Source of the DNA: Rubrivirga marina
GTDB lineage: Bacteria; Bacteroidota; Rhodothermia; Rhodothermales; Rubricoccaceae
Direction: 5' to 3'
DNA length: 64,000 bases
Assembly: GCF_002283365.1 (NCBI RefSeq)
Contig: NZ_MQWD01000001.1
Location: forward strand, 1,311,154 to 1,375,153
Shown in pieces: positions 17,656-58,477 of this stretch. Position numbers and translations under genes: made by a program. Every line of letters starts with the position of its first letter. Position 1 is the first letter of the stretch. The notes beneath the pieces were generated by a model that ran no database searches, had not been told where the DNA came from, and saw only the letters and a program-made list of their open reading frames with translations.

Positions 17656-19140
17656 ATGCACATTGCTGTCGTCGGAACCGGATACGTCGGCCTCGTCTCG
17701 GGCGTCTGCTTCGCCGAGATGGGCAACCAAGTCACCTGCGTCGACATCGACGCCCGGAAGGTCGAGAGCCTCCGCGACGGGCGCCTCACGATCTACGAGC
17801 CCGGGCTCGAGGTCTACTTCGACCGGGGCCGCCGCGAGAACCGGCTCCGGTTCACGACGGACCTCGCCGAGGCCCTCGCGCCGGCCGACGTCGTGTTCCT
17901 CGCCCTCCCGACGCCGCCGGGGGAGGACGGCTCGGCCGACCTCCGCTACGTCCTCGGCGTCGCCGATGACGTCGGCCGGCTTCTCGCCGAGGCCCGGCGA
18001 GGCCTCGCCGGCGCCGAGGCCGGCGGGGACGGCGCCGCCAGCAGGCCCTGGGGCTACAAGGTGATCGTCGACAAGAGCACGGTGCCCGTCGGCACCTCGG
18101 CCCGCGTGACGGCGGCCATCGAGGCGCACGGGCTCGAGGCCGGCGAGGACTTCGACGTGGTGTCGAACCCCGAATTCCTCCGGGAGGGCGCGGCCGTCGA
18201 CGACTTCATGAAGCCCGAGCGCGTCGTCGTCGGGACCGACTCGGAGAGGGCGGCCGAGCTCATGACCCGGCTCTACGAGCCGTTCGTCCGGAGCGGGAAC
18301 CCGATCCTCGTCATGGACGAGGCGAGCGCCGAGATGACGAAGTACGCGGCGAACGCGATGCTCGCGACGAAGATCACGTTCATGAACGAGGTCGCGAACC
18401 TCTGCGACCGGGTCGGCGCCGACGTCGACAAGGTCCGCCGCGGGATCGGGACGGACAGCCGGATCGGGCCGAAGTTCTTGTACGCCGGGATCGGGTTCGG
18501 CGGGTCGTGCTTCCCGAAGGACGTCCAGGCCCTCCACCGGACCGCGGGGCAGAACGGCTACGACTTCCGCATCCTTCAGGCCGTCCTCGACGTGAACGAG
18601 GACCAGAAGCGGGCACTCGTCCCGCCCGTCCTCGACGCGCTGGCGGATGACGCCGGCCGCCTCGACGGCAAGACGATCACGGTGTGGGGCCTCGCGTTCA
18701 AGCCGCACACGGACGACGTCCGCGAGGCGCCGGCCCACGTGCTCATCCGCGAGTTCGTCGGCCTCGGGGCCGACGTCGTCGCGTTCGACCCCGAGGCCGT
18801 CGAGACGACGAGGGCCACGTTCGAGCGCGAGCCTCTCGAGGGGTCCGGCTCGCTGTCGTACGCCGAGACGGCCTACGACGCGGCCGCCGGCGCCGACGCG
18901 CTCGTCGTGGCGACGGAGTGGCCCGAGTTTCGCCGGCCCGATCTCGCCCGCGTCCGCCGGTCGCTCAAGCCGGGGCCCAACGGCGCCCCGCTCCTCTTCG
19001 ACGGGCGGAACGTGTTCGAGCCGGGGGAGATGGCCGAAGCGGGATTCGCCTACCGGTCCATCGGCCGTCCGGCCGTAGAGCCGCTGCCGATCGACGACGG
19101 AGCCGGCGCGACCCCCGTCGTCACGCTCCCCGGTTCCTAG
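17656..19140 (+). CDS. ugd: UDP-glucose 6-dehydrogenase
   Basis: A 494-residue enzyme that oxidises UDP-glucose to UDP-glucuronate with two NAD+. The Rossmann motif [17 protein letters not shown] lies at the N-terminus, and the catalytic nucleophile is Cys285 in [10 protein letters not shown]. Lys/Asn ligands occur in [11 protein letters not shown]. The protein is longer than the usual ~440 residues because of an Ala/Gly-rich insertion near residues 110-135 and a loose C-terminal tail. The next gene is UDP-glucuronate decarboxylase, which uses its product. The start at 17656 is fixed by the first strand MHIAVVG. Confidence 0.96.
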
Positions 19141-19192
19141 GCGTGAGCCCCCACTCGTCGCGCTGAATCCGGCGACCGCACCCTCTCCCCGC

Positions 19193-20179
19193 ATGCCCCG
19201 CACGCTCATCACCGGCGGCGCCGGCTTCCTCGGCTCCCACCTCTGCGACCGGTTCGTCGCCGAGGGCCACGACGTCGTCTGCGTCGACAACCTCGTCACG
19301 GGGAACCCCGACAACGTCGCCCACCTCGTCGGGCACCCCCGGTTCGAGTTCGTCCGCCACGACGTCTCGACGTTCGTCTACGTCGCGGGCGACGTCGACC
19401 ACGTCCTCCACTTCGCGAGCCCGGCGAGCCCGATCGACTACCTCCGGCTCCCGATCCAGACGCTGAAGGTCGGGTCCCTCGGGACCCACAACGCGCTCGG
19501 CCTGGCCAAGGCGAAGGGGGCCCGGTTCCTCCTCGCCTCGACGAGCGAGGTGTACGGGGACCCCCAGGTCCACCCCCAGCCCGAGTCGTACTGGGGCCAC
19601 GTGAACCCGGTCGGGAGCCGCGGGGTCTACGACGAGGCCAAGCGGTTCGCCGAGGCCATGACCATGGCGTACCACCGGTCCCACGGGGTCGACACGCGGA
19701 TCGTCCGGATCTTCAACACGTACGGCCCGCGGATGCGGCTCGACGACGGGCGGGCCCTCCCGGCGTTCATGGGCCAGGCGCTGAGGGGCGAGCCGATCAC
19801 GGTCTTCGGCGACGGGTCCCAGACGCGGTCGTTCCAGTACGTCGACGACCTCGTCGAGGGGGTCTGGCGGCTGCTCCACTCGGGCGGGCCCTCGGCCTCC
19901 GACCCGGTCAACGTGGGGAACCCGGACGAGGTGACGATCAAGGAGTTCGCCGAGGAGGTCGTCGCGCTCACGGGGTCGTCGTCGTCGATCACGTACGAGC
20001 CGCTCCCGTCGGACGACCCGAAGGTCCGCCAGCCCGACGTCACGCGGGCGCGGGAGGTCCTGGGCTGGGCGCCGACGGTGGACCGGGCCGAGGGGCTCCG
20101 CCGGACCCTCGACTACTTCCGAAAGCGCGTTCCCGAGTTCCACGATCGGATCTCGGAGCCCGCCAGATTGGTGGTCTAG
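19193..20179 (+). CDS. UDP-glucuronate decarboxylase (UDP-xylose synthase)
   Basis: A 328-residue extended short-chain dehydrogenase. The NAD-binding motif is [12 protein letters not shown], and the catalytic pair is Tyr146/Lys150 in YDEAK. UXS-type blocks include [34 protein letters not shown] and [15 protein letters not shown]. It converts UDP-glucuronate to UDP-xylose in the cytoplasm. It lies 52 bases downstream of ugd and so forms a two-step donor pathway for the polysaccharide assembled further along the window. Related dTDP-glucose dehydratases lack this ASP motif, so the UXS call is strong. Confidence 0.92.
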
Positions 20180-33414: not shown

Positions 33415-35463
33415 TTACCCCGGGGCGATGCCGGCCTCGACGAGTCGCCGCCAGAGCGTCTCGACCGACGCCTCGATCGAGGCCGACGCGGTGGGGAGGA
33501 CCACGTCGGGAGCGGGCGGCGGCTCGTACGGGGCCGAGACGCCGGTGAACCCCTCGATCTCGCCGCGGTCCGCGCGGGCGTAGAGGCCCTTCGGGTCACG
33601 CGCTCGCGCGGTCTCCACGTCGACCTCGACGTAGACCTCGAGGAAGCGGCCCTCCGGGACGAGCGCCCGGACCCGGGCGCGGTCGGCCGCCGACGGCGAG
33701 ACGAGCGCGCACAGGACGACGAGCCCCTGGTCCACCAGCAGACGGGCGACCTCGCCCGTGCGGCGGACGGCCTCGGCGCGGTCGGCCGCGTCGAAGCCAA
33801 GGTCGCCGTTGAGCCCGTGGCGGAGGGCGTCGCCGTCGAGCCGGACCGTCTGGACGCCGGCCGCCTGGAGACGCCGCTCGACGTGTCGGGCGATCGTCGT
33901 CTTGCCTGAGCCCGAGAGGCCCGTGAGCCAGACGACCCCCGCACGCCAGCCATTGTGCGCCTCGCGTTCCGCCAGCGGCACGTCGTCCGCCTCCCACACG
34001 ACGTCCGGGGAGGACGGCCTCGCGAGGACCGGCGAGCCCGCGCCGCGCCCGTCGCCGCTCGGGGGCGCCACCGGGGGTGCCTGTCCGTCGAGGCGCGCGG
34101 CCTCCCGAGCGACGTCGTCGGGGTCTTGCGCAGCGCCGCGGATCATGCCGGCCGCGACCGTCCCGTTCGAGTAGGGGTCGATGAGGATGAACCCGCCGGT
34201 CTTCCGGTTGATGGCGTAGGGGTCAAAGAAGATCGGGGCCGCCGTCGTGAGGCGGACGCGCGCGATGTCGTTGAGCCCGAGCGCGGCGGCCGGCTGGCGG
34301 TGCAGCGTGTCGACGTCGACCCGGTAGACGATCTCGTCGACGAAGACCTTCACCTCGCGGGTCGTGTGGCGGAGGAGGTAGTGGCGGCCGGGCTCGAGGG
34401 GCGTCTCGCTCATCCAGCACACCATGGCGTCGACGGCGCTCGCGACCGTCGGGAGGTTCCCCGTGCGGACGAGCATGTCGCCGCGCGAGACGTCAAGGTC
34501 GTCCGTCAGCTCGATCACGACGGGCTCGCCGGCGGCCGCCCGAGGCTGCTCGCCGTCGAAGGTGGTCACGCTCAGGATCCGGCTCTCGCGGCCCGACGGG
34601 AGGGCGAGGACGGCGTCGCCCGGCCGGACCTCTCCCGACGCGACGGTCCCAGCGAGCCCGCGGAAGTCCTGGTGCGGCCGGATGACGGTCTGGACGGGGA
34701 ACCGGAAGTCGACGAGGTTGCGGTCGGCCGCGACGTTGATCGTTTCGAGGAGGTAGAGCAGCGTCGGGCCCTCGTACCAGTCCATGTGCTCGCTCCGCTC
34801 GACGACGTTGTCGCCCTTGAGCGCCGAGACCGGCACGAACCGGACGTCGTGGACGCCGAGCTTGGCCGAGAACGCGGTGTACTCCTCCACCACGGCGTCG
34901 TAGGCCTCCTCGGCGTAGTCGACGAGGTCCATCTTGTTGATGGCGACCACGAGGCGGGGGATGCCCAAGAGCGACGCCAGGAAGCCGTGCCGCTTCGACT
35001 GGGTCTGGACGCCGCGTCGGGCGTCGACCAGGATGATCGCGAGGTCGGCCGTCGAGGCCCCCGTGACCATGTTCCGCGTGTACTGGACGTGGCCCGGCGT
35101 GTCGGCGATGATGAACTTCCGCCGCGGCGTCGCGAAGTACCGGTACGCCACGTCGATCGTGATCCCCTGCTCCCGCTCGGCCCTCAGCCCGTCCGTCAGC
35201 AGCGCGAGGTCGGGGACCCCGTCGTCGTCGGTCCCCCGGGCCCGCGAGGCCTCCGAGACGGCCTCGAGCTGGTCCTCGAAGATCGACTTCGAGTCGTAGA
35301 GGAGCCGGCCGATCAGCGTGCTCTTCCCGTCGTCGACGCTCCCGGCCGTCGTGAACCGGAGGAGGTCCATGTCGAGGTACCCGTCGGAGGGGTCGACCGG
35401 GGGGCCGTCGGGGGCGCCGGCCTCGGCGGCGAGGCGGGCGGGGTCGGTGCCGTTGGTCTGCAT
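33415..35463 (-). CDS. cysNC: Bifunctional sulfate adenylyltransferase GTPase subunit / APS kinase
   Basis: A 682-residue fusion. The CysN half (about 30-450) is a GTPase that drives ATP sulfurylase: G1 AGSVDDGKST at 40-49, G3 DTPGH, G4 NKMD, and a switch region with EREQGITIDVAYRYF. The CysC half (about 505-680) has the APS kinase P-loop GLSGSGKTT near residue 515 and the RLDGDALRHGLNGDLGF block. Together with CysD it makes APS and then PAPS. No PAPS reductase (CysH) is in the window, and sulfotransferases share the operon, so PAPS here most likely feeds sulfonation of a polysaccharide rather than cysteine synthesis (inference). Confidence 0.96.
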   Translation of the reverse strand: MQTNGTDPARLAAEAGAPDGPPVDPSDGYLDMDLLRFTTAGSVDDGKSTLIGRLLYDSKSIFEDQLEAVSEASRARGTDDDGVPDLALLTDGLRAEREQGITIDVAYRYFATPRRKFIIADTPGHVQYTRNMVTGASTADLAIILVDARRGVQTQSKRHGFLASLLGIPRLVVAINKMDLVDYAEEAYDAVVEEYTAFSAKLGVHDVRFVPVSALKGDNVVERSEHMDWYEGPTLLYLLETINVAADRNLVDFRFPVQTVIRPHQDFRGLAGTVASGEVRPGDAVLALPSGRESRILSVTTFDGEQPRAAAGEPVVIELTDDLDVSRGDMLVRTGNLPTVASAVDAMVCWMSETPLEPGRHYLLRHTTREVKVFVDEIVYRVDVDTLHRQPAAALGLNDIARVRLTTAAPIFFDPYAINRKTGGFILIDPYSNGTVAAGMIRGAAQDPDDVAREAARLDGQAPPVAPPSGDGRGAGSPVLARPSSPDVVWEADDVPLAEREAHNGWRAGVVWLTGLSGSGKTTIARHVERRLQAAGVQTVRLDGDALRHGLNGDLGFDAADRAEAVRRTGEVARLLVDQGLVVLCALVSPSAADRARVRALVPEGRFLEVYVEVDVETARARDPKGLYARADRGEIEGFTGVSAPYEPPPAPDVVLPTASASIEASVETLWRRLVEAGIAPG

Positions 35464-35524
35464 GGTCGAGAGCGGGGTGCGGGATCGGGGATGTGGGATG
35501 GGTGAGGACGAGCGATGGGCTCAT

Positions 35525-35560
35525 CCCTCGACGTCCCTCTTAGAAATGGCCCTGGTTCTA
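35525..35560 (-). repeat. Imperfect tandem repeat at the cysD 3' end
   Basis: Two ~17-base copies of (C/T)TAGAAAT(A/G)GCCCTG lie next to each other. One encodes the last codons of cysD (QGYF and stop); the other, just after it, would encode QGHF and a stop. It looks like a small slippage duplication. Confidence 0.5.
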
Positions 35561-36508
35561 GAAATAGCCCTGCTTCTTCCGGTCCTCCATGGCCGCCTCC
35601 GACCGCTTGTCGTCGTGGCGCCCCCCCCGCTCCGTCTGCCGCGCCGCGGCCACCTCCCGGATGACCTCCGGGAGCGTCGACGCCGTGCTCCGGACGGCCC
35701 CCGTGCACGTCGCGTCGCCGACCGTCCGGAACCGGACGGTCTCCCGCCTCACGGCCTCGCCGGCCTGGGGCCCGGCGAACTCCGTCACGGCGAGGAGCGT
35801 CCCCCCCCGCTCGAACACGTCCCGCTCGTGGGCGAAGTAGAGCGCGGGGAGCCCGACGCCCTCGAGCGCCACGTACTGCCACACGTCCATCTCCGTCCAG
35901 TTCGAGAGCGGGAACACCCGGAACGTCTCGCCGACGTGGCGGTGCCCGTTGTAGAGGTCCCAGAGCTCGGGCCGCTGGTTCTTCGGGTCCCACTGGCCGA
36001 ACCGGTCGCGGGCCGAGAAGAACCGCTCCTTCGCCCGGGCCTTCTCCTCGTCGCGCCGCCCGCCCCCGAACGCCGCGTCGAACCGGTGCTCGGCGAGGGC
36101 GTCGAGGAGCGGGACGATCTGGAGCCCGTTCCGGGAGGCCTCCGGCCCCGTCTCCTCGACGACGCGGCCGGCGTCGATGGCCCCCTGGACGGAGGCGACC
36201 TCGAGCCGGAGCCCGAGCCCGGCGACGAGGGCGTCGCGGAAGGCGAGGGTCTCGGGGAAGTTGTGGCCCGTGTCGACGTGGAGGAGCGGGAACGGGACGG
36301 GCCCGGGGTGGAACGCCTTCCGGGCGAGGTGGACCATGAGGATCGAGTCCTTCCCGCCGGAGAACAGGAGGGCCGGCCGCTCGAACTGGGCGGCCACCTC
36401 GCGCATGACGTGGATCGCCTCCGCCTCGAGCGTCCGGAGGTGGGAAGACGGCGAGGCCGCCAAGCGGGCGGGCGCGGACGGGGCGGGAGCGAGCATTTCC
36501 AGGGGCAT
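35558..36508 (-). CDS. cysD: Sulfate adenylyltransferase subunit 2
   Basis: A 316-residue PP-loop ATPase that adenylylates sulfate to APS with the CysN GTPase. Its motifs are LLFSGGKDSILMVHLARKAF (PP-loop near residues 47-62), LLHVDTGHNFPE, AFGGGRRDEEKARAKERFFS, FPLSNWTEMDVWQY, and the C-terminal GDATCTGAVRSTASTLPEVI block. It is followed by cysNC after 94 bases and preceded by the SLC13 permease by 11 bases. An in-frame ATG four codons further in is also possible. It is part of the minus-strand set sulfotransferase-cysQ-like-permease-cysD-cysNC. Confidence 0.96.
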   Translation of the reverse strand: MPLEMLAPAPSAPARLAASPSSHLRTLEAEAIHVMREVAAQFERPALLFSGGKDSILMVHLARKAFHPGPVPFPLLHVDTGHNFPETLAFRDALVAGLGLRLEVASVQGAIDAGRVVEETGPEASRNGLQIVPLLDALAEHRFDAAFGGGRRDEEKARAKERFFSARDRFGQWDPKNQRPELWDLYNGHRHVGETFRVFPLSNWTEMDVWQYVALEGVGLPALYFAHERDVFERGGTLLAVTEFAGPQAGEAVRRETVRFRTVGDATCTGAVRSTASTLPEVIREVAAARQTERGGRHDDKRSEAAMEDRKKQGYF

Positions 36509-36519
36509 GGGAGTCGGGG

Positions 36520-38295
36520 TCAAAACCAGAGCAGCTTCATGGTGAGGAGAGCGGTCGCGCTGTAGACGAGCGAGACCGGCGCGCCGGCGCGGACGTAGTC
36601 GGCGAAGCGGTAGCCGCCGGCGGACATGACCATGAGGTTGGTCTGGTAGCCGAACGGCGTGAGGAAGCCGGACGAGGCCGCGAGCGCGATGGCGACGCCG
36701 AAGACGGTGGGCGAGACGCCCGCCTGAGCGGCCGCCTCCAGACCCATCCCGATCATGAGCGCGGCGGCGGCGTTGTTCGTGATGAGCTCGGTCAGGACGA
36801 CCGTCACCAGGTAGAGCGCCATGAGGACGCCGAACGGGCCGGCAGGGCCTGCCACCCCGACGACGGCGTCGGCGAAGGTGACCGCGAGGCCCGTGGTCTC
36901 GAGGGCCTTCCCAACCCCGAGCGCCATCGCGATGACGACGAGCGTCGGGAGTTGGACGGCCTCGCGCGCGTCGCGTCCTCGGAGGCATCGGGTCGCGATC
37001 ATGGCGAGGGCCCCGACAAACGCCGCCCGGTCGATGGGGACGATGCCGGCGGCGGCCAGCGCGATGACGGTGCCGAGAATGGCCAGCGCCAGTGGGGCCT
37101 TCCGGGGCTGAGGTCGTGGGCGCTCGGGCCGGCGGGGGGCCACGAGGTAGAACTCGTCGCGGCGCGCGTTCCACTCCTTCTCGAACCCGTTCGCCGCCTC
37201 GACCACCAGGAGGTCGCCGGAGTGGAGCGGCGTGCGGCCGAGGCGGCCCGTGAGGGCGTCGTCGGCCCGCTGGATGGCGAGGACCACGCCGCCGTAGCGC
37301 TCGCGGAACTCGGCCTCCCGGAGCGTTCTCCCCACGAGCGACGACGACTCGGCGACGACGGCCTCGTAGAGGGGGAGCGTCTCGAGGAGCGGGGTGGAGA
37401 CGGGCTCGACAGCGCGGGCGAGGCCGGGCCGGTCGAGGAGCCCGTCGAGCGCCCGCGCGCTCCCCTGGAAGGTGAGGGTGTCGCCGGCACGGAGGGCGGA
37501 CTCGGGCGTCGCGGGGACGAGGTCGTCGTCGCGGCGAAGGTGGACGAGGTAGGCCGTCTCGAGCGAGCGGAGCCCGGCCTCTTCGATCGTCTGGCCCACG
37601 AGAGGCGAGCCCGTGGGCACGCGAACCTCGAAGAGGCAGCGGCCGAGTCCGTCGCCGACGGGGCCGTCCCCGGCCCGGCGGCCGGGGAGGAAGCGGTGGC
37701 TGACGAGCGCCATCACGGCGAGGGCGGCGAGGGCCGCCGGCAGGGCCACTGGCGTCTGAGTGAACATGCCGAGGGGCTCGAGGCCGGCCTCGGCCATCCG
37801 ACCGGTCACGACGAGGTTCGTGCTCGTACCGATGAGCGTGAGCGTCCCACCGACGGTCGTGGAGTAGGCCACGAACATGAGAACCTTCGAGGGCGGGATG
37901 CCCGCCCGTTCGCACCACGCCTGCGCACGCGGCGTGACCATCGCGACGATCGGCGTGTTGTTGAGGACGGCCGACATGACGCCGAGGAGGCCTCCCATCT
38001 GGGCGACGGATCGCGTCAGGCCGCCCTGCCGCGGGAACAGGGCCCGATCGGCGAAGCCAAGGGCACCGGTGTTCTGGACGCCTGCCGCCAGGACGAACAG
38101 CGAGGCCACGGCGATGACGGCCGGGTTGGCGAACCCCGCGAAGGCGTCCTGCGGGGAGAGCACGCCGAGGGCCACGAGGACGCCGACGGCTCCGACGAGG
38201 ACGAGGTCGGCCCGGGCGAGGTCGCGGACGAGCGCGTAGAGCATGGCCCCGACGACGGCGAGCGTCGCCCAGGCCGCCCAGGTCAGGCCGCCCAT
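36520..38295 (-). CDS. SLC13-family permease with two TrkA-C domains (probable sulfate transporter)
   Basis: A 591-residue inner-membrane transporter of the divalent-anion:Na+ symporter family. About ten membrane segments are split by a cytoplasmic loop (about 205-395) with two TrkA-C-type regulatory domains: LFEVRVPTGSPLVGQTIEEA and YEAVVAESSSLVGRTLREAE. Family signatures are NNTPIVAMVTP, STTVGGTLTLIGTSTN and, in the second half, ELITNNAAAALMIGMG and SSGFLTPFGYQTNLMV. Position directly before cysD and cysNC makes sulfate the likely substrate. Its start lies 13 bases inside the end of the cysQ-like gene, so translation is coupled. Confidence 0.92.
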   Translation of the reverse strand: MGGLTWAAWATLAVVGAMLYALVRDLARADLVLVGAVGVLVALGVLSPQDAFAGFANPAVIAVASLFVLAAGVQNTGALGFADRALFPRQGGLTRSVAQMGGLLGVMSAVLNNTPIVAMVTPRAQAWCERAGIPPSKVLMFVAYSTTVGGTLTLIGTSTNLVVTGRMAEAGLEPLGMFTQTPVALPAALAALAVMALVSHRFLPGRRAGDGPVGDGLGRCLFEVRVPTGSPLVGQTIEEAGLRSLETAYLVHLRRDDDLVPATPESALRAGDTLTFQGSARALDGLLDRPGLARAVEPVSTPLLETLPLYEAVVAESSSLVGRTLREAEFRERYGGVVLAIQRADDALTGRLGRTPLHSGDLLVVEAANGFEKEWNARRDEFYLVAPRRPERPRPQPRKAPLALAILGTVIALAAAGIVPIDRAAFVGALAMIATRCLRGRDAREAVQLPTLVVIAMALGVGKALETTGLAVTFADAVVGVAGPAGPFGVLMALYLVTVVLTELITNNAAAALMIGMGLEAAAQAGVSPTVFGVAIALAASSGFLTPFGYQTNLMVMSAGGYRFADYVRAGAPVSLVYSATALLTMKLLWF

Positions 38296-39125
38296 ACGGG
38301 AGGGGGAGGAGCTAGAGAGGTGGCCTGCACGGGGGCCGAGACGTACTGATGCCAGTCGAGGTCGGGATCGCCTGACCCGACGATGGCCGGGGCGGACGGG
38401 GCCGACATGGAGTACGCCAGGGGCCGGCCGGCGAGGTCCGTGAGCCGCCCACCGGCCGCCTCCAGAATCGCCTGGGCCGCGGCCATGCCCCAGGCCGGCG
38501 TCTGGGCCGCGCGGGGGGCGAGGTCGGCCGCCCCCTCGGCGACGAGGCAGAACGGGAGGGACGAGCCCGCGCGGCGCGACGTGACGCGGACGCCGCCCAT
38601 GTAGAGCCGGAGGGCCAGGTCGGCGGCAGGCGGTCGCTCTGAAGACGAGCCCACGGCGACCGTGAGCCGGCGCGGATCGGCGTGGCGAATGCGGATGGGT
38701 ACCGGCGGGCCGTCGCCGTCGACGCGGTGGGCGCCCCGCCCGCGCGCCGCGGCATAGGCGCGTCCCCACGCCGGGGCGACCACGACGCCGAGGACGGGCC
38801 GGCCTCGTTCGATAAGGGCGACGTCGACGGTGAACGCTCCCGTCCGCTGCAGGAACTCGGCGCTCCCGCCGAGCGGGTCGACGCACCACCACTGGTGGGC
38901 CGACTCGTGCCGCTCCTGGACCGCGTCGGCCGAGACGACCGGGACGCCGGGGGGGAGCCGGGCCAGCCGATCCCGGAGGTAGGCCTCGGCGGCGGCTCGG
39001 GCCGCCGCGAGGGCGTCGTCCCCGAGCGGCGCGGCATGGCCGTAGTGGGCGAGGGCGATCGCGCCGCCGGCCGTCGCGAGGCGGCGGACGAGTTCGACGG
39101 GCGGCCCCGGGCGGCGGTCCGTCAT
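38283..39125 (-). CDS. CysQ-like inositol-phosphatase-family protein lacking metal ligands
   Basis: A 280-residue protein whose body clearly aligns with CysQ (3'-phosphoadenosine 5'-phosphate phosphatase): GAFTVDVALIERGRPVLGVV and AILEAAGGRLTDLAGRPL. Yet the metal-binding residues of the IMPase superfamily are missing. The DPLDGT motif reads DPLGGS (Asp83 kept, Gly86 and Ser88 replace Asp and Thr). The SEE motif reads SADA near residue 65. The late WD motif reads WG (Trp212-Gly213). It should therefore be inactive or use another mechanism. It overlaps the sulfotransferase stop (ATGA) and the permease start, placing it where a PAP-recycling enzyme is expected. Confidence 0.88.
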   Translation of the reverse strand: MTDRRPGPPVELVRRLATAGGAIALAHYGHAAPLGDDALAAARAAAEAYLRDRLARLPPGVPVVSADAVQERHESAHQWWCVDPLGGSAEFLQRTGAFTVDVALIERGRPVLGVVVAPAWGRAYAAARGRGAHRVDGDGPPVPIRIRHADPRRLTVAVGSSSERPPAADLALRLYMGGVRVTSRRAGSSLPFCLVAEGAADLAPRAAQTPAWGMAAAQAILEAAGGRLTDLAGRPLAYSMSAPSAPAIVGSGDPDLDWHQYVSAPVQATSLAPPPPVWAA

Positions 39126-40003
39126 TGGTCCGGGTGGGGCGGGGCCGTGCGGTGACCCGGGGCGGCAGAGCCCCGAGGCGGGCTCCGTCGGGTCATGGCC
39201 CAAGCGACACGACCGGCCGCGCCGTCCCCACGGGAGGCCACGGAGAGGGAGGCGGGGGCCTGTACCAGCGCGTGGTAGAGACGGTAGGCCTCGTCGCGGA
39301 GCGCGCGGTGGCTCGGGAGGTTGAAGGCCGTGCGGAGCACGTCCTTTCCGACCTGCCGCTGCCCAGAGGGCCGCGCGACGGTCCGTCCGGGCTCAGGCGC
39401 CGTGCGTCGGTAGAACTCGTCGATGACGGCGAAGCACCGCTGGACCTCGGCGTCCGTGTGGTCGAAGGGGGCGAAGTCTGTCCCGAAGCGGGCGTTGACG
39501 GCGCCGACGACGGCGCCGAAGTCGCTCGTGACGTCCTGGAAGTCCGCCACGACGACGTGCTCGCGGTACGGGAGCACGCGGCGGTAGAAGAGGACGTAGT
39601 CGCGGAGGGCCGTCTTCAGCGGGTACCCGAAGGACCGCGCGTTGGAGACGACGGCCTCCTCGGGGTCGCGGATGAGGAGGATGGTCGGGATGCCGGCCGC
39701 GGCCGCCCCGACGATCTGGGCCTCGGCGTGGAGGTGGTGCGCGGCCTCGACGGGCGTCCCCTGCGCCAGTTGGAAGGCGACGGTGGCGAACGTGTTGCCG
39801 CACCGCGGGTACCCCTCGATCACGATCCGCGTCCGGTCGTGGACGACGCCGGTGTGAACCATGCGAACGCCGTTGATGAGCATGTACGGCCGCTTCTTGT
39901 GGCGGATCAATGGGAAGTAGACCCTCGGAAAGTGCCGGACAGCCTGCCGGAGGTAGAAGCGCACGCGGCGTTGGGCGGTCCAGTCCCAGGAAGACGATGC
40001 CAT
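39122..40003 (-). CDS. Sulfotransferase-family protein
   Basis: A 293-residue protein with the P-loop-like PAPS-binding motif VIEGYPRCGNTFATVAFQ (5'-phosphosulfate loop) and the 3'-phosphate-binding block ILLIRDPEEAVVSNARSF. It would move sulfonate from PAPS to a sugar hydroxyl. No membrane segment is evident. It leads the minus-strand operon for PAPS supply and overlaps the cysQ-like gene by four bases (ATGA), so making PAP and the CysQ-like protein are tied together. I chose the ATG at 40003 because the upstream residues are unconserved. It is divergent from the WecG-type gene. The acceptor is inferred to be the locus polysaccharide. Confidence 0.87.
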   Translation of the reverse strand: MASSSWDWTAQRRVRFYLRQAVRHFPRVYFPLIRHKKRPYMLINGVRMVHTGVVHDRTRIVIEGYPRCGNTFATVAFQLAQGTPVEAAHHLHAEAQIVGAAAAGIPTILLIRDPEEAVVSNARSFGYPLKTALRDYVLFYRRVLPYREHVVVADFQDVTSDFGAVVGAVNARFGTDFAPFDHTDAEVQRCFAVIDEFYRRTAPEPGRTVARPSGQRQVGKDVLRTAFNLPSHRALRDEAYRLYHALVQAPASLSVASRGDGAAGRVAWAMTRRSPPRGSAAPGHRTAPPHPDQ

Positions 40004-48572: not shown

Positions 48573-49478
48573 ATGCCCACCTCCACGCCGCCCCCGAGGC
48601 CGACCCTCGGGGCCCGCGACCGCCTTCCGCCCCCCATCCGCTCGGCCCTCTCGGCCGGGAAGCGGGCGGCGTGGTTCTCGATCGGCCGGATGACCCCGGT
48701 GCCGACGCGGCCGGTCCTCGTGCTCGGCAACCAGAAGGCCGGGACGACGGCGGTCGCCGCGCTCCTCGCGCAGTACGCCGGGCTCTCGGCCACGCTCGAC
48801 TTCCGCTACCTCACGTCGAGCTGGCTGAAGGGCGTCCACGACGGGAGCATCCCCTTCCAAGCGTTCCTCCGGCGTCACGCCCTCGACTTCTCGCGGGGCC
48901 TGGTGAAGGAGCCGAACCTGTCGCTGCTCTACCCCCACCTCGTCCGGGCCTTCCCCGAGGCCGAGGTGGTCCTGATCGTCCGCGACCCCCGCGACAACAT
49001 CCGGAGCGTGCTGAACCGGCTGGGCCTCCCGGGCGACGCGCCGCCGCCGGAGGGCTGGGCCGACCGCGTCAACCCACTGTGGCGTCTCGTCGTCGACGGG
49101 GCGTGGCTCGGGCTCGAGGGCGGGACGCACGTCGAGGCCCTCGCCAGCCGCTGGAGCGCGATCGCCGACGTGGCCCTCGACCACGCCGACCGCGTCCGCC
49201 TCATCCGTTACGAGGACTTCATGGCCGACAAGGAGGGCGCCGTGGCCGACCTCGCCGCCCGGTGCGGGCTCGAACAGAAGGCCGACATCGCCGACCGGCT
49301 CAACGTCGCGTTCCAGCCGCGCGGCGACCGAGCCGTCTCGTGGACGTCGTTCTTCGGCGACGACGCGCTCCGGCGCCTCGACACTCGCTGCGGGGACCGC
49401 CTCGCCGCGTTCGGCTACCCCTCCAGCATCGAGGCCGGTCCCCCGGCCGATCCCGCCCCCTCGCCCCCCCTCCGATGA
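48573..49478 (+). CDS. Sulfotransferase-family protein
   Basis: A 301-residue protein. The PAPS 5'-phosphosulfate loop is LVLGNQKAGTTAVAALLAQ (about residues 49-67), and the 3'-phosphate-binding block is VVLIVRDPRDNIRSVLNRL. A late VRLIRYEDFMADKEG motif is typical of the family. It lies 23 bases after the SLBB gene and shares an ATGA overlap with the flippase gene, so it belongs to the export/assembly operon. It would sulfonate a sugar, probably on the lipid-linked repeat before export (inference). It is only distantly similar to the other two sulfotransferases in the window, suggesting a different position or sugar. Confidence 0.87.
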   Translation: MPTSTPPPRPTLGARDRLPPPIRSALSAGKRAAWFSIGRMTPVPTRPVLVLGNQKAGTTAVAALLAQYAGLSATLDFRYLTSSWLKGVHDGSIPFQAFLRRHALDFSRGLVKEPNLSLLYPHLVRAFPEAEVVLIVRDPRDNIRSVLNRLGLPGDAPPPEGWADRVNPLWRLVVDGAWLGLEGGTHVEALASRWSAIADVALDHADRVRLIRYEDFMADKEGAVADLAARCGLEQKADIADRLNVAFQPRGDRAVSWTSFFGDDALRRLDTRCGDRLAAFGYPSSIEAGPPADPAPSPPLR

Positions 49479-51962: not shown

Positions 51963-53149
51963 CCGCTCCTCGCACCGCCCTCCTCTACTCGAACGCGCTC
52001 CTCCCGTACTCGGAGACGTTCATCCGCGACCACGGGGCGTCGCTCACGCGGTACCGCCCCGTGTACGCCGGCTGCCGCCGCGTCGAGGGGCTCGAGCTGG
52101 ACGCCCCGGTCGAGGTCCTCAACGCCGGGAGGCTGGACGGGGGGGCGAACGAGGTCCGGTTCAAGATGACGGGCCACGCGCCGGCCTTCGTCGAGCGGCT
52201 CCGGGCCCACGACCCCGCCCTCCTCCACGCCCACTTCGGGGGCTGCGCAGCCGTCGCGCTCCCCCTCGCCGACACGCTCGGGATCCCGTTCGTGGTCACG
52301 TTCCACGGGGTCGACGCCACGCGGACGCTCCGGGACCGGCTTCGCGCGCCGACCCTCACGTCTCAGTTGTACCTCCTCCGCGAGCAGCGCCTCCAGAAGC
52401 GTGCCGACGCGGTCCTCGTCGTCGCGAACTACATGCGCGACCTCCTCCTCGCGCGGGGCTTCCCCGAGGACAAGGTCCGCGTTCACTACCTCGGGATCGA
52501 CACGGAGGCGTTCGCGCCGGACCGGTCGGGCGTCCCGCCGCCGCTCGTCCTGTTCGTCGGCCGGATGGTCGAGAAGAAGGGGGCGACGTACCTCCTGCGG
52601 GCGATGGCAAAGGTGCGGGCGGACGTGCCCGAGGCGGAGCTGGTCGTCATCGGCGACGGGCCGCTGCGGGCGTCGCTGGAGCGGGAGGCCGCGGCGCTGG
52701 TCCCCGGCGCGCGGTTCCTCGGGCGCCGCCCGCCGGCCGAGGTCCGGGAGTGGATGAACCGGGCCCGGGTGCTCAGCGTGCCTAGCATCGTGGCCAAGTC
52801 GGGGGACCGTGAGGGGCTGGGGATCGTGTTCCTCGAGGCCCAGTCGGTCGGGACGCCCGTCGTGACGTTCCCGACGGGCGGCGTGCCCGAGGCGCTCGAC
52901 GACGGGGCGTCGGGCTTCCTCGTCCCGGAGAAGGACGTCGAGGCCCTGGCGGCGCGGATCACGTCCCTCCTCACGGACGACGCGCTGTGGGCGTCGATGA
53001 GCGAGCGCGGGATCGCCTGGGTCCGCGAGCGGTTCGACATCCGGCGGCAGGCGCGCGCGCTCGAGTCGCTCTACGACGAGCTCACGGAGCGCCAGCCCGC
53101 GACTGCCGTCCGCGCGTCCCACCGGCCGCTGGTGGCCTCCGAGCTATGA
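51959..53149 (+). CDS. Family 4 glycosyltransferase
   Basis: A 396-residue GT-B enzyme. The N-terminal acceptor domain has LLYSNALLPYSETFIRDHG and LHAHFGG. The C-terminal donor domain has LFVGRMVEKKGATYLLRAM, ELVVIGDGPLRASLE, and the EX7E-type motif EGLGIVFLEAQSVGTPVV. It transfers an alpha-linked sugar from a nucleotide donor (retaining). It overlaps both neighbours by four bases (ATGA), so it is translationally locked between the GT2 and the third sulfotransferase. The sugar donor is not determined. Confidence 0.93.
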   Translation: MTAPRTALLYSNALLPYSETFIRDHGASLTRYRPVYAGCRRVEGLELDAPVEVLNAGRLDGGANEVRFKMTGHAPAFVERLRAHDPALLHAHFGGCAAVALPLADTLGIPFVVTFHGVDATRTLRDRLRAPTLTSQLYLLREQRLQKRADAVLVVANYMRDLLLARGFPEDKVRVHYLGIDTEAFAPDRSGVPPPLVLFVGRMVEKKGATYLLRAMAKVRADVPEAELVVIGDGPLRASLEREAAALVPGARFLGRRPPAEVREWMNRARVLSVPSIVAKSGDREGLGIVFLEAQSVGTPVVTFPTGGVPEALDDGASGFLVPEKDVEALAARITSLLTDDALWASMSERGIAWVRERFDIRRQARALESLYDELTERQPATAVRASHRPLVASEL

Positions 53150-54120
53150 CCGCGACGGCGCCCCTGCTCCACATCGGCTACATGAAGACCGGCAGCACGT
53201 GGCTCCAGCGCCACGTGGCGTCGGACGCGGCGACCGGCCTGGGGCTCATCGCCGAGCGCGAGGACCTCACCGAGCTCCTCGTCCGGCCGACCGTGCTCGG
53301 CTACGACGCCGGCGTCATCCGTGCCCTCGTCGCCGGCCCGCTGCGGGAATGCGAGCGCCGCGGACTCGTGCCCTTCATCTCGCACGAGCGGCTCTCGGGC
53401 AACCCGATCTCGGGCGGCTTCGACAGCACGATCGTGGCCGACCGCCTCGCCGACCTGTTCCCCGAGGCGCGGGTGGCCATCGTGATCCGGGAGCAGCGGT
53501 CGTTCCTCGCTTCGTTCTACAACGAGTACGTGTGCGGCGGCGGGGCGTGCTCGCTCCGGGCGTTCCTCCACCCGCCGCCGGGGGCGAAGCTGCCGCTCTT
53601 CACGGCCGGCTTTCTCGAGTACGACCGGCTCATCGGCTACTACCAGGAGCGGTTCGGGCGGGACCGCGTGCTGGTCCTCCCGTACGAGTCGCTCCGTCGC
53701 GACCCGCTGGCCTTCTGCAACCGCCTGATCACGTTCGGCGGCGGGCGCCCGCTTGCCGCCGTGCCGACGGAGGCGACGCGGCGGAGCCGGTCGTGGGCCG
53801 TCCTCGGCCTCCAGCGGGGCCTCAACTTCGCCCTGTTTCGCGACAGCTCGAACCCCGCCGCGCCAGTCCGCATCCCCAACATTAACCGGGTCGCGGACGT
53901 GGCCTCGCGCGCCACGCCCGCCTCGGTGGACCGCTGGGCCAAGCGCCGCGCCGCCGCGCTCATCGCCGACTTCGTGGGCACCCGCTATGCCGAGAGCAAC
54001 CGGCGGACGCAGGCGTCGGTGGAGGCCTCTTTGGGCGAGCTCGGGTACGACCTGGCCCCGGAGCAGACCGTGCCTCTGGCGCCGGTCCGGGACGCGGGCG
54101 CAGAGGTCTTGGTGCCATGA
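53146..54120 (+). CDS. Sulfotransferase-family protein
   Basis: A 324-residue protein. The PAPS-binding loop is LLHIGYMKTGSTWLQRHVA (about residues 7-25), and a late block is VAIVIREQRSFLASFYNEYV, where Arg and Ser bind the 3'-phosphate. VLVLPYESLRRDPLAF follows. This is the third sulfotransferase of the locus and the second in the long plus-strand operon. It overlaps its neighbours by ATGA at both ends. The mix of sulfotransferases and glycosyltransferases suggests several sulfate groups per repeat unit (inference). It resembles the KTGST-type carbohydrate sulfotransferases. Confidence 0.87.
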   Translation: MTATAPLLHIGYMKTGSTWLQRHVASDAATGLGLIAEREDLTELLVRPTVLGYDAGVIRALVAGPLRECERRGLVPFISHERLSGNPISGGFDSTIVADRLADLFPEARVAIVIREQRSFLASFYNEYVCGGGACSLRAFLHPPPGAKLPLFTAGFLEYDRLIGYYQERFGRDRVLVLPYESLRRDPLAFCNRLITFGGGRPLAAVPTEATRRSRSWAVLGLQRGLNFALFRDSSNPAAPVRIPNINRVADVASRATPASVDRWAKRRAAALIADFVGTRYAESNRRTQASVEASLGELGYDLAPEQTVPLAPVRDAGAEVLVP

Positions 54121-55202: not shown

Positions 55203-58175
55203 ATGTCCCGACTGATCCACCTCACGAGTGCGGCCGTCCTGGTCGCATCGTTCCTCGTCGCCCCCATCACCCTCGGACAGGCCCCCCTGCTCCGGTTCGA
55301 GAACCTCGACGGGGCGCCGTTCCCGGACCGCCTCGTCATGAGCCGGATCGGGACGCTGGCGAGCCCGCCGCCCGCCAACGGCGTCCACGACGTCTCGAAG
55401 GTCCGGCTCCACAACGACGGCACGGGCCCGCTCACGGTCTCGTCCCTCTCGGTGTCCGGCGCGTTCGAACTGGCCACGTCGCCGACGCTCCCGCTGACCG
55501 TCGCCGCCGGCGGGTCGACGGACGTCTCAGTCCGCTTCATCGCCGAGAGCGGGACGCAGAGCGGCGGTACCCGCGGGCCGCACCTCGGATACCTCACGAT
55601 CGGTTCCGACGACCCGAGCACGCCGAGCGCCGTCGTCACGCTCCGGGGGTACTGGCAGAATCTCTCAGAGAACAACAAAGAACCGAGCCTGGTCCAACTC
55701 ATCGAGCAACTGTTCGGGTACGGGACGAAGATTCTCCGGTCCGGTGAGAGCGTCGTCAGCCAAGGCCGGATCGAGCGGGTCGGGGACGAAGTGATCTCGC
55801 CGTTCTGGCGCGCGGCCGACCCCGACCAGCCGGTGTCCGTCCAGCAACTCGCGGCATACCACGTGTGCTGCACCGACGGCGACCCCCTGTTCTGGTACGA
55901 GCGGGGGACGACCGCGACGACCCAGATCGTCCGCCACAACGCGGCCGATGGGCAGACCGTCCTCCCCCGCCGCGCCGGGAGCAGTGTGGCCCTCGCCATC
56001 GGCACGTTCACCCCTGGCCTGACCGAGTTCGGGTTCCGTACGGGCAACGAGTGGAGCGACCCGTTCAAGAACGACGCGACGCCCGATGACTGTTCAGGAG
56101 GGATCGGCACGTGCGGCCAGCACGTTCGGTTCTGGCCAGCTAAGGACCCCTCGGGGACGGTGATCCCTGACTCGTATTTCCTGACGATGGACTTCGCGGG
56201 GATCAACTACGACTTCAACGACAACGTCTACCTCATCTCGAACATCGCCCCGGTCACTCCGGTAGCCACGTCCGGGACGGTCCGCCTGAACGCCGGCGGC
56301 CCGGAGGTCACGACCGGAGAGAAGACGTTCGGGGCGAACGCGTTCGCGACGAACGGCCAGAGCTACACGCCGACGTGCGACCTCGGCGACATCGCGGGGA
56401 CGACGGACGACGACCTCTACCGGACGGAGCTCGAGCCGGTCCCGACGGGGCCCCGGGCCTTCGCCTACAACGTCCCGGTCTCGAACGGACCGTACACGGT
56501 CCGGCTCCACTTCGCCGAGATCTACTGGGGGAGCTGCGAGGCCCCGGCGGCGACCGTCGGGAAGCGCGTGTTCTCGGTGACGGTGGAGGGCCAGTCGGTC
56601 CTGACCAACCTCGACATCTTCGCCGAGGTCGGGGTCCGGGCGGCCCTCGTCAAGACGTTCCAGACGACGGTCACGGGGAACATGCTCAACGTGTCGTTCC
56701 TGGCCAGCGCGAACAACCCGATGCTCTCGGCCATCGAGATCGTCCCGGGCGGGCCCACCGACCCGTCGATCGTGGTCGATGGCAACCGCGGGTTCCGTTA
56801 CCTCGGCACGCCGTCACTCGGCGTGACCGTCGACGACCTTGCGGCGCAGAACCTCGTCCGTGGCGTTCCGGGGTATTACCCGCCCGCCATTCCGCCGAAC
56901 CTCTACACGAGCTACGACGCCACCTCGGCCTCGTGGAACGTGTCGGCCGGCACCGGCGAGGTCCTCACCCCGGGCCAGGCCTTCCGGTGGTTCATGTACG
57001 ACCGGAACGTCGGCAACCCCGCCGTCTCGCGCTCGGTCGAGCTCCCGTTCACGCTCTCGACCGACTTCGCCCCCAACGCGGCCGACGTGACGGTCGAGCT
57101 CCAGACGGGCGGGTCCCGGTTCAACTACCTCGCCAACCCGTTCGGGGTCGATCTCGACGTGACGGGCATCTTCGGGTGGCCCGGCGGCGACAACGTCGCC
57201 CCGATCTTCGGTGTCGAAGTCTTCGACGACCTCACGCTCTCGTGGAAGCCGGCGGTCGGCTCGATCGCCCCGTGGGCGGCGTTCCGGATCCGGGCCAAGG
57301 GCCCGTTCCTCAACGGCGACCCGCGGACGCTGACGATCCCAGCCTCGGCCACGCTCTCGGGCGCCCAGCAGGCCGACCGCCAGGTGGTGGCCACGGCGGA
57401 CCGTGAGGCCGGCGTCGTCCGCCTCGCGTTCGCCCTCGACGGCCGGTCCCTCGACGGCCAGCCCCTCGCCGACCGGTCGTTCGCCGTCGCGTTCACCGAC
57501 GACGCCCGGACCTCCCTCGACGAGGCCGACGCGCCGAAGTCCGCGCCGCTCGCCGAGGCCTCCCTCACGCTTGGAGCCCGAATCGACGGCCGGCTCGTCG
57601 GCGTCGACGCCCGGCCGTTCGTGGCCGGCGAGGTCCCGCTCGCCCTCGACGCCCGCGGGGCCGCCCGCGAGCTCACGCTCTCATGGGACGCCACGGCCCT
57701 CCCGGCCGGGCTCCCCGTCACGCTCGTCGACCTCGCGACCGGCGCCGAGGTCGACGTCCGCACTCAGACGAGCTACGCGTTTCAGGCAGCATCGCGCCCG
57801 GCTCTCTCGGAGGACGAGGTCGCCGGCCTCGGCGAGCTTGCCGACGGGGCCGCCGCGATGGACCGGTTCGTCCTCCGGATCGGGACCGTCCTCACCGACG
57901 CCGAGGCGGTCAGAGCCCTCGCGCTCACGACCATCGCGCCGAACCCGCTGTCCTCGACGGCCCGCGTCGCGTTCGATGTCCCGACATCGGGCCGGGCCCG
58001 CGTGTCGGTCGTCGACGTCCGGGGCCGGGAGGTCGCCGTGCTCGTCGACGGGGTCGTCGAGGCGGGCCGTCACGAGGCGGTCCTCGACGGGTCGGGCCTG
58101 GCGGCGGGGGTGTACCTCGTCCGGCTCGAGGCCGACGGGCGGGTCGTGACGCGGCAGGCCGCCGTCGTTCGGTAA
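55203..58175 (+). CDS. Large secreted malectin-domain protein with T9SS sorting domain
   Basis: A 990-residue protein. The signal peptide (LTSAAVLVASFLVAPITLGQ) leads into a HYDIN/choice-of-anchor-like beta domain (about 25-150: VRLHNDGTGPLTVSSLSVSG, LTVAAGGSTDVSVRF). A conserved ~200-residue region with paired cysteines (YHVCCTDGDP, CSGGIGTCGQ) follows, then a malectin domain (about 360-505: VRLNAGGPEV, LHFAEIYWG). The middle part is beta-rich (about 515-720). The C-terminal sorting domain (about 900-990) reads IAPNPLSSTARVAFDVPTSG, DVRGREVAVL, LAAGVYLVRL. It is a likely type IX cargo that binds glycans at the surface, and a paralog of the next gene. Confidence 0.87.
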   Translation: MSRLIHLTSAAVLVASFLVAPITLGQAPLLRFENLDGAPFPDRLVMSRIGTLASPPPANGVHDVSKVRLHNDGTGPLTVSSLSVSGAFELATSPTLPLTVAAGGSTDVSVRFIAESGTQSGGTRGPHLGYLTIGSDDPSTPSAVVTLRGYWQNLSENNKEPSLVQLIEQLFGYGTKILRSGESVVSQGRIERVGDEVISPFWRAADPDQPVSVQQLAAYHVCCTDGDPLFWYERGTTATTQIVRHNAADGQTVLPRRAGSSVALAIGTFTPGLTEFGFRTGNEWSDPFKNDATPDDCSGGIGTCGQHVRFWPAKDPSGTVIPDSYFLTMDFAGINYDFNDNVYLISNIAPVTPVATSGTVRLNAGGPEVTTGEKTFGANAFATNGQSYTPTCDLGDIAGTTDDDLYRTELEPVPTGPRAFAYNVPVSNGPYTVRLHFAEIYWGSCEAPAATVGKRVFSVTVEGQSVLTNLDIFAEVGVRAALVKTFQTTVTGNMLNVSFLASANNPMLSAIEIVPGGPTDPSIVVDGNRGFRYLGTPSLGVTVDDLAAQNLVRGVPGYYPPAIPPNLYTSYDATSASWNVSAGTGEVLTPGQAFRWFMYDRNVGNPAVSRSVELPFTLSTDFAPNAADVTVELQTGGSRFNYLANPFGVDLDVTGIFGWPGGDNVAPIFGVEVFDDLTLSWKPAVGSIAPWAAFRIRAKGPFLNGDPRTLTIPASATLSGAQQADRQVVATADREAGVVRLAFALDGRSLDGQPLADRSFAVAFTDDARTSLDEADAPKSAPLAEASLTLGARIDGRLVGVDARPFVAGEVPLALDARGAARELTLSWDATALPAGLPVTLVDLATGAEVDVRTQTSYAFQAASRPALSEDEVAGLGELADGAAAMDRFVLRIGTVLTDAEAVRALALTTIAPNPLSSTARVAFDVPTSGRARVSVVDVRGREVAVLVDGVVEAGRHEAVLDGSGLAAGVYLVRLEADGRVVTRQAAVVR
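55290..55409 (+). repeat. 120-bp segment repeated at 58565-58684 (one mismatch)
   Basis: This segment codes for the first ~40 mature residues (RFENLDGAPFPDRLVMSRIG and on). It recurs 3275 bases downstream in the paralogous gene with a single C/T difference, while the flanking coding sequence is clearly more diverged. Confidence 0.85.
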
Positions 58176-58477
58176 CAGCGAGGAGTTCGGGGCCCGTGGC
58201 GACCGGTAGGGCCTCGCCCGCGTCTGCGATAGACGTGGGCGAGGCTAACGCGCAGCATGGTCGACGAGGGCGCCCAACGTCCCGTCTGGGTTCCTGAGGC
58301 CGACCGCTCAGCCCTCCCGGAGGAGACGGTCTCCAGGGAGCGGATAGCGCGCTCGGACCACGCTCACTAGGTCTTCTGCACCACCCCGGCTGCGCGACGA
58401 CATAGGAGCGCACAGCGGCACCTGGCAGTCCCCTCGCTCGCTCCCTCTGGTCGTCACGCACGTCGTGAACCCGCCCC
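58176..58477 (+). other. 302-base gap between paralogous giant genes
   Basis: It holds a strong terminator at 58211-58245. Beyond that there is only presumed promoter sequence for the next gene; no gene or clear promoter motif was recognised. Confidence 0.5.
58211..58245 (+). terminator. Hairpin after the large malectin gene
   Basis: GCCTCGCCCGCGTCT pairs with AGACGTGGGCGAGGC (14 of 15) around the loop GCGAT. No T-run follows. Confidence 0.7.

Follow-up and report, generated by a model that had tools for sequence, protein, structure and literature searches.

The gene designated cysQ* occupies positions 38283..39125 on the minus strand of a 64,000-nt stretch of the Rubrivirga marina genome (GCF_002283365.1, contig NZ_MQWD01000001.1, forward-strand positions 1,311,154-1,375,153), which is referred to below as the window. 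The reading frame begins with an ATG at 39125, remains open for 280 codons and closes with a stop that ends at 38283, and the 280-aa product is treated here as a candidate CysQ-like pseudoenzyme on the basis of profile, alignment and model evidence. On the same strand, the operon runs from a gene for a sulfotransferase-like P-loop protein (39125..40003; GYPRCGNTF ... RDPEEAVVS) through cysQ* to a CitMHS/DASS-type permease with two TrkA-C domains (36520..38295), cysD for the small subunit of sulfate adenylyltransferase (35558..36496), and cysNC for its large subunit and APS kinase (33415..35463), the last three being assigned by profile matches. The sulfotransferase-like gene overlaps cysQ* by 4 nt (ATGA), its stop falling on the cysQ* start codon, and the ATG of the permease gene sits inside the final codons of cysQ*, in agreement with the preliminary description, in which cysQ* was translationally coupled to both neighbors. 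The gene set cysQ-permease-cysD-cysNC has been reported in capsule clusters of Cobetia (PMC11766843), and in its position cysQ* resembles a true cysQ.

The product of 39125-40003 (-) carries a PAPS-type P-loop, and five genomes of the order have homologs with motifs of the DGFQGSGNSF or DGFPRSGNTF type. The protein itself matched no family in Pfam or NCBIfam, a sequence search gave no relative in the PDB, and just one homolog reaches Sulfotransfer_1 (E 0.0026). The name sulfotransferase given to it earlier is therefore supported by the P-loop but not by any family match in Pfam or NCBIfam, and the protein possibly belongs to a sulfotransferase family that has not been described. Further sulfotransferase-domain genes were found in the same polysaccharide cluster at 48573-49478 (+) and about 53146-54120 (+). 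With these two additional genes in the window, production of PAP in the cluster is likely.

The genome holds three PF00459 genes, namely cysQ*, an IMPase/SuhB-like gene, and a canonical cysQ at 3.841 Mb (L034 7345-8148); the last of these is the second, canonical copy that the preliminary description had proposed to look for. It is adjoined by UGD and UXS and then by a permease gene, cysD and cysNC (operon B), so that its product is a paralog of the cysQ* protein in a parallel operon, 41-43% identical to it. The two operons lie ~2.5 Mb apart and share an exactly identical tract of 1395 bp covering cysD and the start of cysNC (35051..36445 in the window, no strand assigned; L034 3945-5339), whereas the flanks are much less alike; this tract probably reflects recent gene conversion, to judge from the sequence comparison. 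The permeases of the two operons align over their full length and are of the same protein type, with about 49-50% identity, but with 57% identity the window permease is closer to another permease, the third in the genome, which indicates that the operon is mosaic. The site of cysQ* is thus a polysaccharide-sulfation gene cluster to which a duplicated, mosaic sulfate-activation operon is attached. The presence of a canonical CysQ elsewhere in the genome means that PAP removal does not need cysQ*.

Membership of the cysQ* protein in the IMPase superfamily was indicated by a PF00459 match of 126 bits against a Pfam cut-off of 27. The match to TIGR01331 (CysQ) scored 151 bits, under the equivalog cut-off of 228.8, compared with 256 bits for the canonical paralog and 303 bits for one relative. 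An AlphaFold2 model of the protein reached a mean pLDDT of 86.3 and a pTM of 0.87 (pLDDT 91.5 for the model of the canonical paralog). In a Foldseek search with this model, the top match was CysQ 3b8b (TM 0.75), and VIA-align superposed the two over 248 residues with a Z of 31.1 and an rmsd of 2.5, the next entry having a Z of 28.5; because the model was built from an alignment of canonical CysQs, this likeness of fold is partly expected. The cysQ* protein is confidently predicted to adopt the CysQ/IMPase fold. The CysQ-like backbone noted in the preliminary description is borne out by PF00459, TIGR01331 and the predicted fold alike. Compared with CysQ, the 3′(2′),5′-bisphosphate nucleotidase (TIGR01331; PDB 3b8b, 5djf-5djk), the protein has the same fold, length and structural motifs, but three of the four metal ligands are missing from it, as are the residues of the catalytic loop and most substrate contacts, and its score is below the cut-off.

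The metal motif of the superfamily is D...EE...DPxDxT...D (PMC7948987). When aligned with 37 canonical CysQs, the cysQ* protein has SAD in place of SEE, DPLGGS in place of DPLDGT (the codons for G86-G87 lying at 38865..38870 on the minus strand), and WG in place of WD, so that A66, G86 and G213 stand at metal-ligand positions and only D83 is retained, while S88 replaces the T of DPLDGT. The positions A66, G86, G213, D83 and S88 are those that we take to correspond to E70, D93, D220, D90 and T95 of IMPA1. The T and D of SPLTxAD and the K of the catalytic loop are also replaced; this mobile loop, VDYKADDSPLTQAD in relatives, is shorter and rewritten as LGDDALAAAR, and its strand pair, present in the canonical model, is missing from that of cysQ*. 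The substrate residues of the Hal2-type PAP phosphatase are H, K, R, E and D (PMC3857206), which we mapped by motif, the position of E being not clearly mappable. By this mapping, the H of SRDH is S162, the K of SSLK is P191 and the D of WD is G213, whereas the R of YPR is retained as R205; three of the four mappable PAP contacts are consequently lost, and the pocket still has R205, S188 and S189 as well as D83. The loss of at least three of the four metal ligands stated in the preliminary description is confirmed as three replaced and D83 kept, and, on the alignment, that account of the site is right and somewhat understated.

Relatives of cysQ* were sought at several depths. The 114 genomes searched in the order yielded no ortholog, and a phylum sample of 395 genomes, of which 49 had matches, yielded no close relative; the matches that were fetched and read for motifs all had canonical DPxDGT. 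Ordinary cysQ-permease pairs are carried by relatives in the family and order. A scan of 84,980 species genomes with octapeptides of the cysQ* protein gave no relative, and a plasmid collection gave partial matches to CysQs and nothing more. The same 84,980 genomes were also searched with a DNA pattern for the loss of D93, W-x-[VIM]-D-P-x-(not D)-G-[ST-like]-x-E-F, which catches only cases with the flanking W and EF intact, so that other dead CysQs may escape it. It matched six stretches, three unrelated and three CysQ-like, the latter being one from a Bacteroides MAG and two truncated remnants, from Streptomyces and from a Gallionellaceae MAG; none of these three shares the set of changes seen in cysQ*, and no clade carrying these substitutions next to sulfotransferase genes, as the preliminary description had suggested looking for, emerged. 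In the CysQ of the Bacteroides MAG (L084 6818-7630), D93 alone is changed to G with the other motifs intact, which may be an error in sequencing or a mutation of recent origin. One match on a viral contig was unrelated and was set aside.

The pattern of losses was analyzed over 63 columns that are 95% conserved in canonical CysQs, comprising 31 hydrophobic, Gly, Pro, Ala or Cys positions (structural) and 32 polar positions. The canonical paralog keeps all 63 and each canonical relative 90-100%, whereas cysQ* retains 38 (60%), divided very unequally between structural (28/31) and polar (10/32) positions (Fisher p 2e-6). A sequencing error was rejected as an explanation, since 25 separate conserved positions are lost with the frame intact. 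As a neutral model, stop-free decay of real canonical genes was simulated at an equal rate across sites, with a high equilibrium GC (0.6 to 0.9) because the genome is GC-rich. With losses fixed at 25, the simulations lost a mean of 10.5 to 11.5 structural positions, and 0/600 lost three or fewer. At 45% identity, the observed structural retention occurred in 0/3000 runs, whether Ala and Gly were counted or left out; at 60% identity, a setting that leaves room for divergence preceding decay, 0/3000 runs matched the full structural set, and 0 to 1% matched smaller subsets. Retention beyond the neutral runs suggests that the fold, unlike the active site, went on being useful; by these counts, selection seems to have preserved the fold but not the active site. 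This conclusion rests on a single sequence from one genome, and with no ortholog sharing the substitutions, selection on cysQ* cannot be measured directly by dN/dS.

Taken together, these observations somewhat favor the reading that cysQ* encodes a folded but catalytically dead, lineage-restricted paralog of CysQ, kept for its fold or for contacts with partners. In line with this, the frame is open over 280 codons at a GC3 of 0.90, and the gene retains its overlaps within the operon. The PAP made by the sulfotransferases of the cluster would be hydrolyzed in trans by the canonical CysQ, and the cysQ* product would have a non-catalytic role, in the simplest case one based on contacts with other proteins, for instance as a subunit or by pairing in a heterodimer with the canonical CysQ or with a neighboring gene product. 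More tentatively, such a non-catalytic subunit might regulate or scaffold the use of PAPS in polysaccharide sulfation, e.g., as a heterodimer with the canonical CysQ or the sulfotransferase-like protein. That an IMPase fold can act through protein and RNA contacts is illustrated by SuhB, a transcription factor for rRNA synthesis in E. coli (PMC6614801); cysQ* shares this fold, but SuhB is not a CysQ, and the comparison extends to the fold and not to RNA or NusA binding.

A less probable but substantial alternative is that cysQ* is under relaxed selection and heading for loss, with an idle product and a frame that is open since it is co-translated with two overlapping genes. The gene is redundant beside the canonical cysQ, the order-wide search gave no ortholog, and its branch is accelerated, at 3.74 changes per column where the median end branch has 0.12. 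Its residue composition is abnormal, and GC1 is raised, as is GC2 (0.62, against 0.44-0.56 in the other genes compared), as expected under relaxed constraint, which counts against a selected pseudoenzyme. Moreover, stop codons are rare at 73% GC, making the open frame a weak sign of function. Against decay, the losses are concentrated on polar and active-site positions, a pattern that unconstrained decay does not reproduce, and the model is confident across the whole domain, although selection against toxic misfolding could account for part of the structural retention.

It is unlikely that the protein is a PAP- or PAPS-binding sensor controlling the permease or the sulfotransferase, as the preliminary description had envisaged. 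The placement of cysQ* between the two genes and the retained pocket residues would suit this role; however, the substrate pocket is eroded as well, with the Hal2-type H, K and D contacts replaced, and metals by the scissile phosphate cannot bind normally. The proposed action on the TrkA-C permease is further weakened since the canonical cysQ adjoins the same permease type. A phosphatase that retains activity by means of a rearranged metal site, or toward a different substrate, is highly improbable. One metal might in principle be held by D83, S88 and the adjacent D67, but neither the two-metal site nor the catalytic loop with its strand pair is left, and the conserved E90 is the sole acid near G86 or G213.

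No paper pairing "CysQ" or "inositol monophosphatase" with "pseudoenzyme" was found in the open literature searched, and the lithium-sensitive phosphatase superfamily seems to have few described pseudoenzymes. If the reading of cysQ* as a folded, dead CysQ is true, its presence in a sulfation operon would suggest that PAP/PAPS metabolism is also controlled at a non-catalytic level; if the gene is decaying, it is a record of how some parts are lost from duplicated sulfation operons and others homogenized by gene conversion. Two other tracts of the window also resemble L034, the locus that holds operon B: 17656-20130 is 89% identical to L034 8242-10634, a region like UDP-glucose dehydrogenase / UDP-xylose synthase in L034, and 56766-58179 is 78% identical to L034 13148-14534, the C-terminal part of a 1246-aa ORF for a probable secreted protein.
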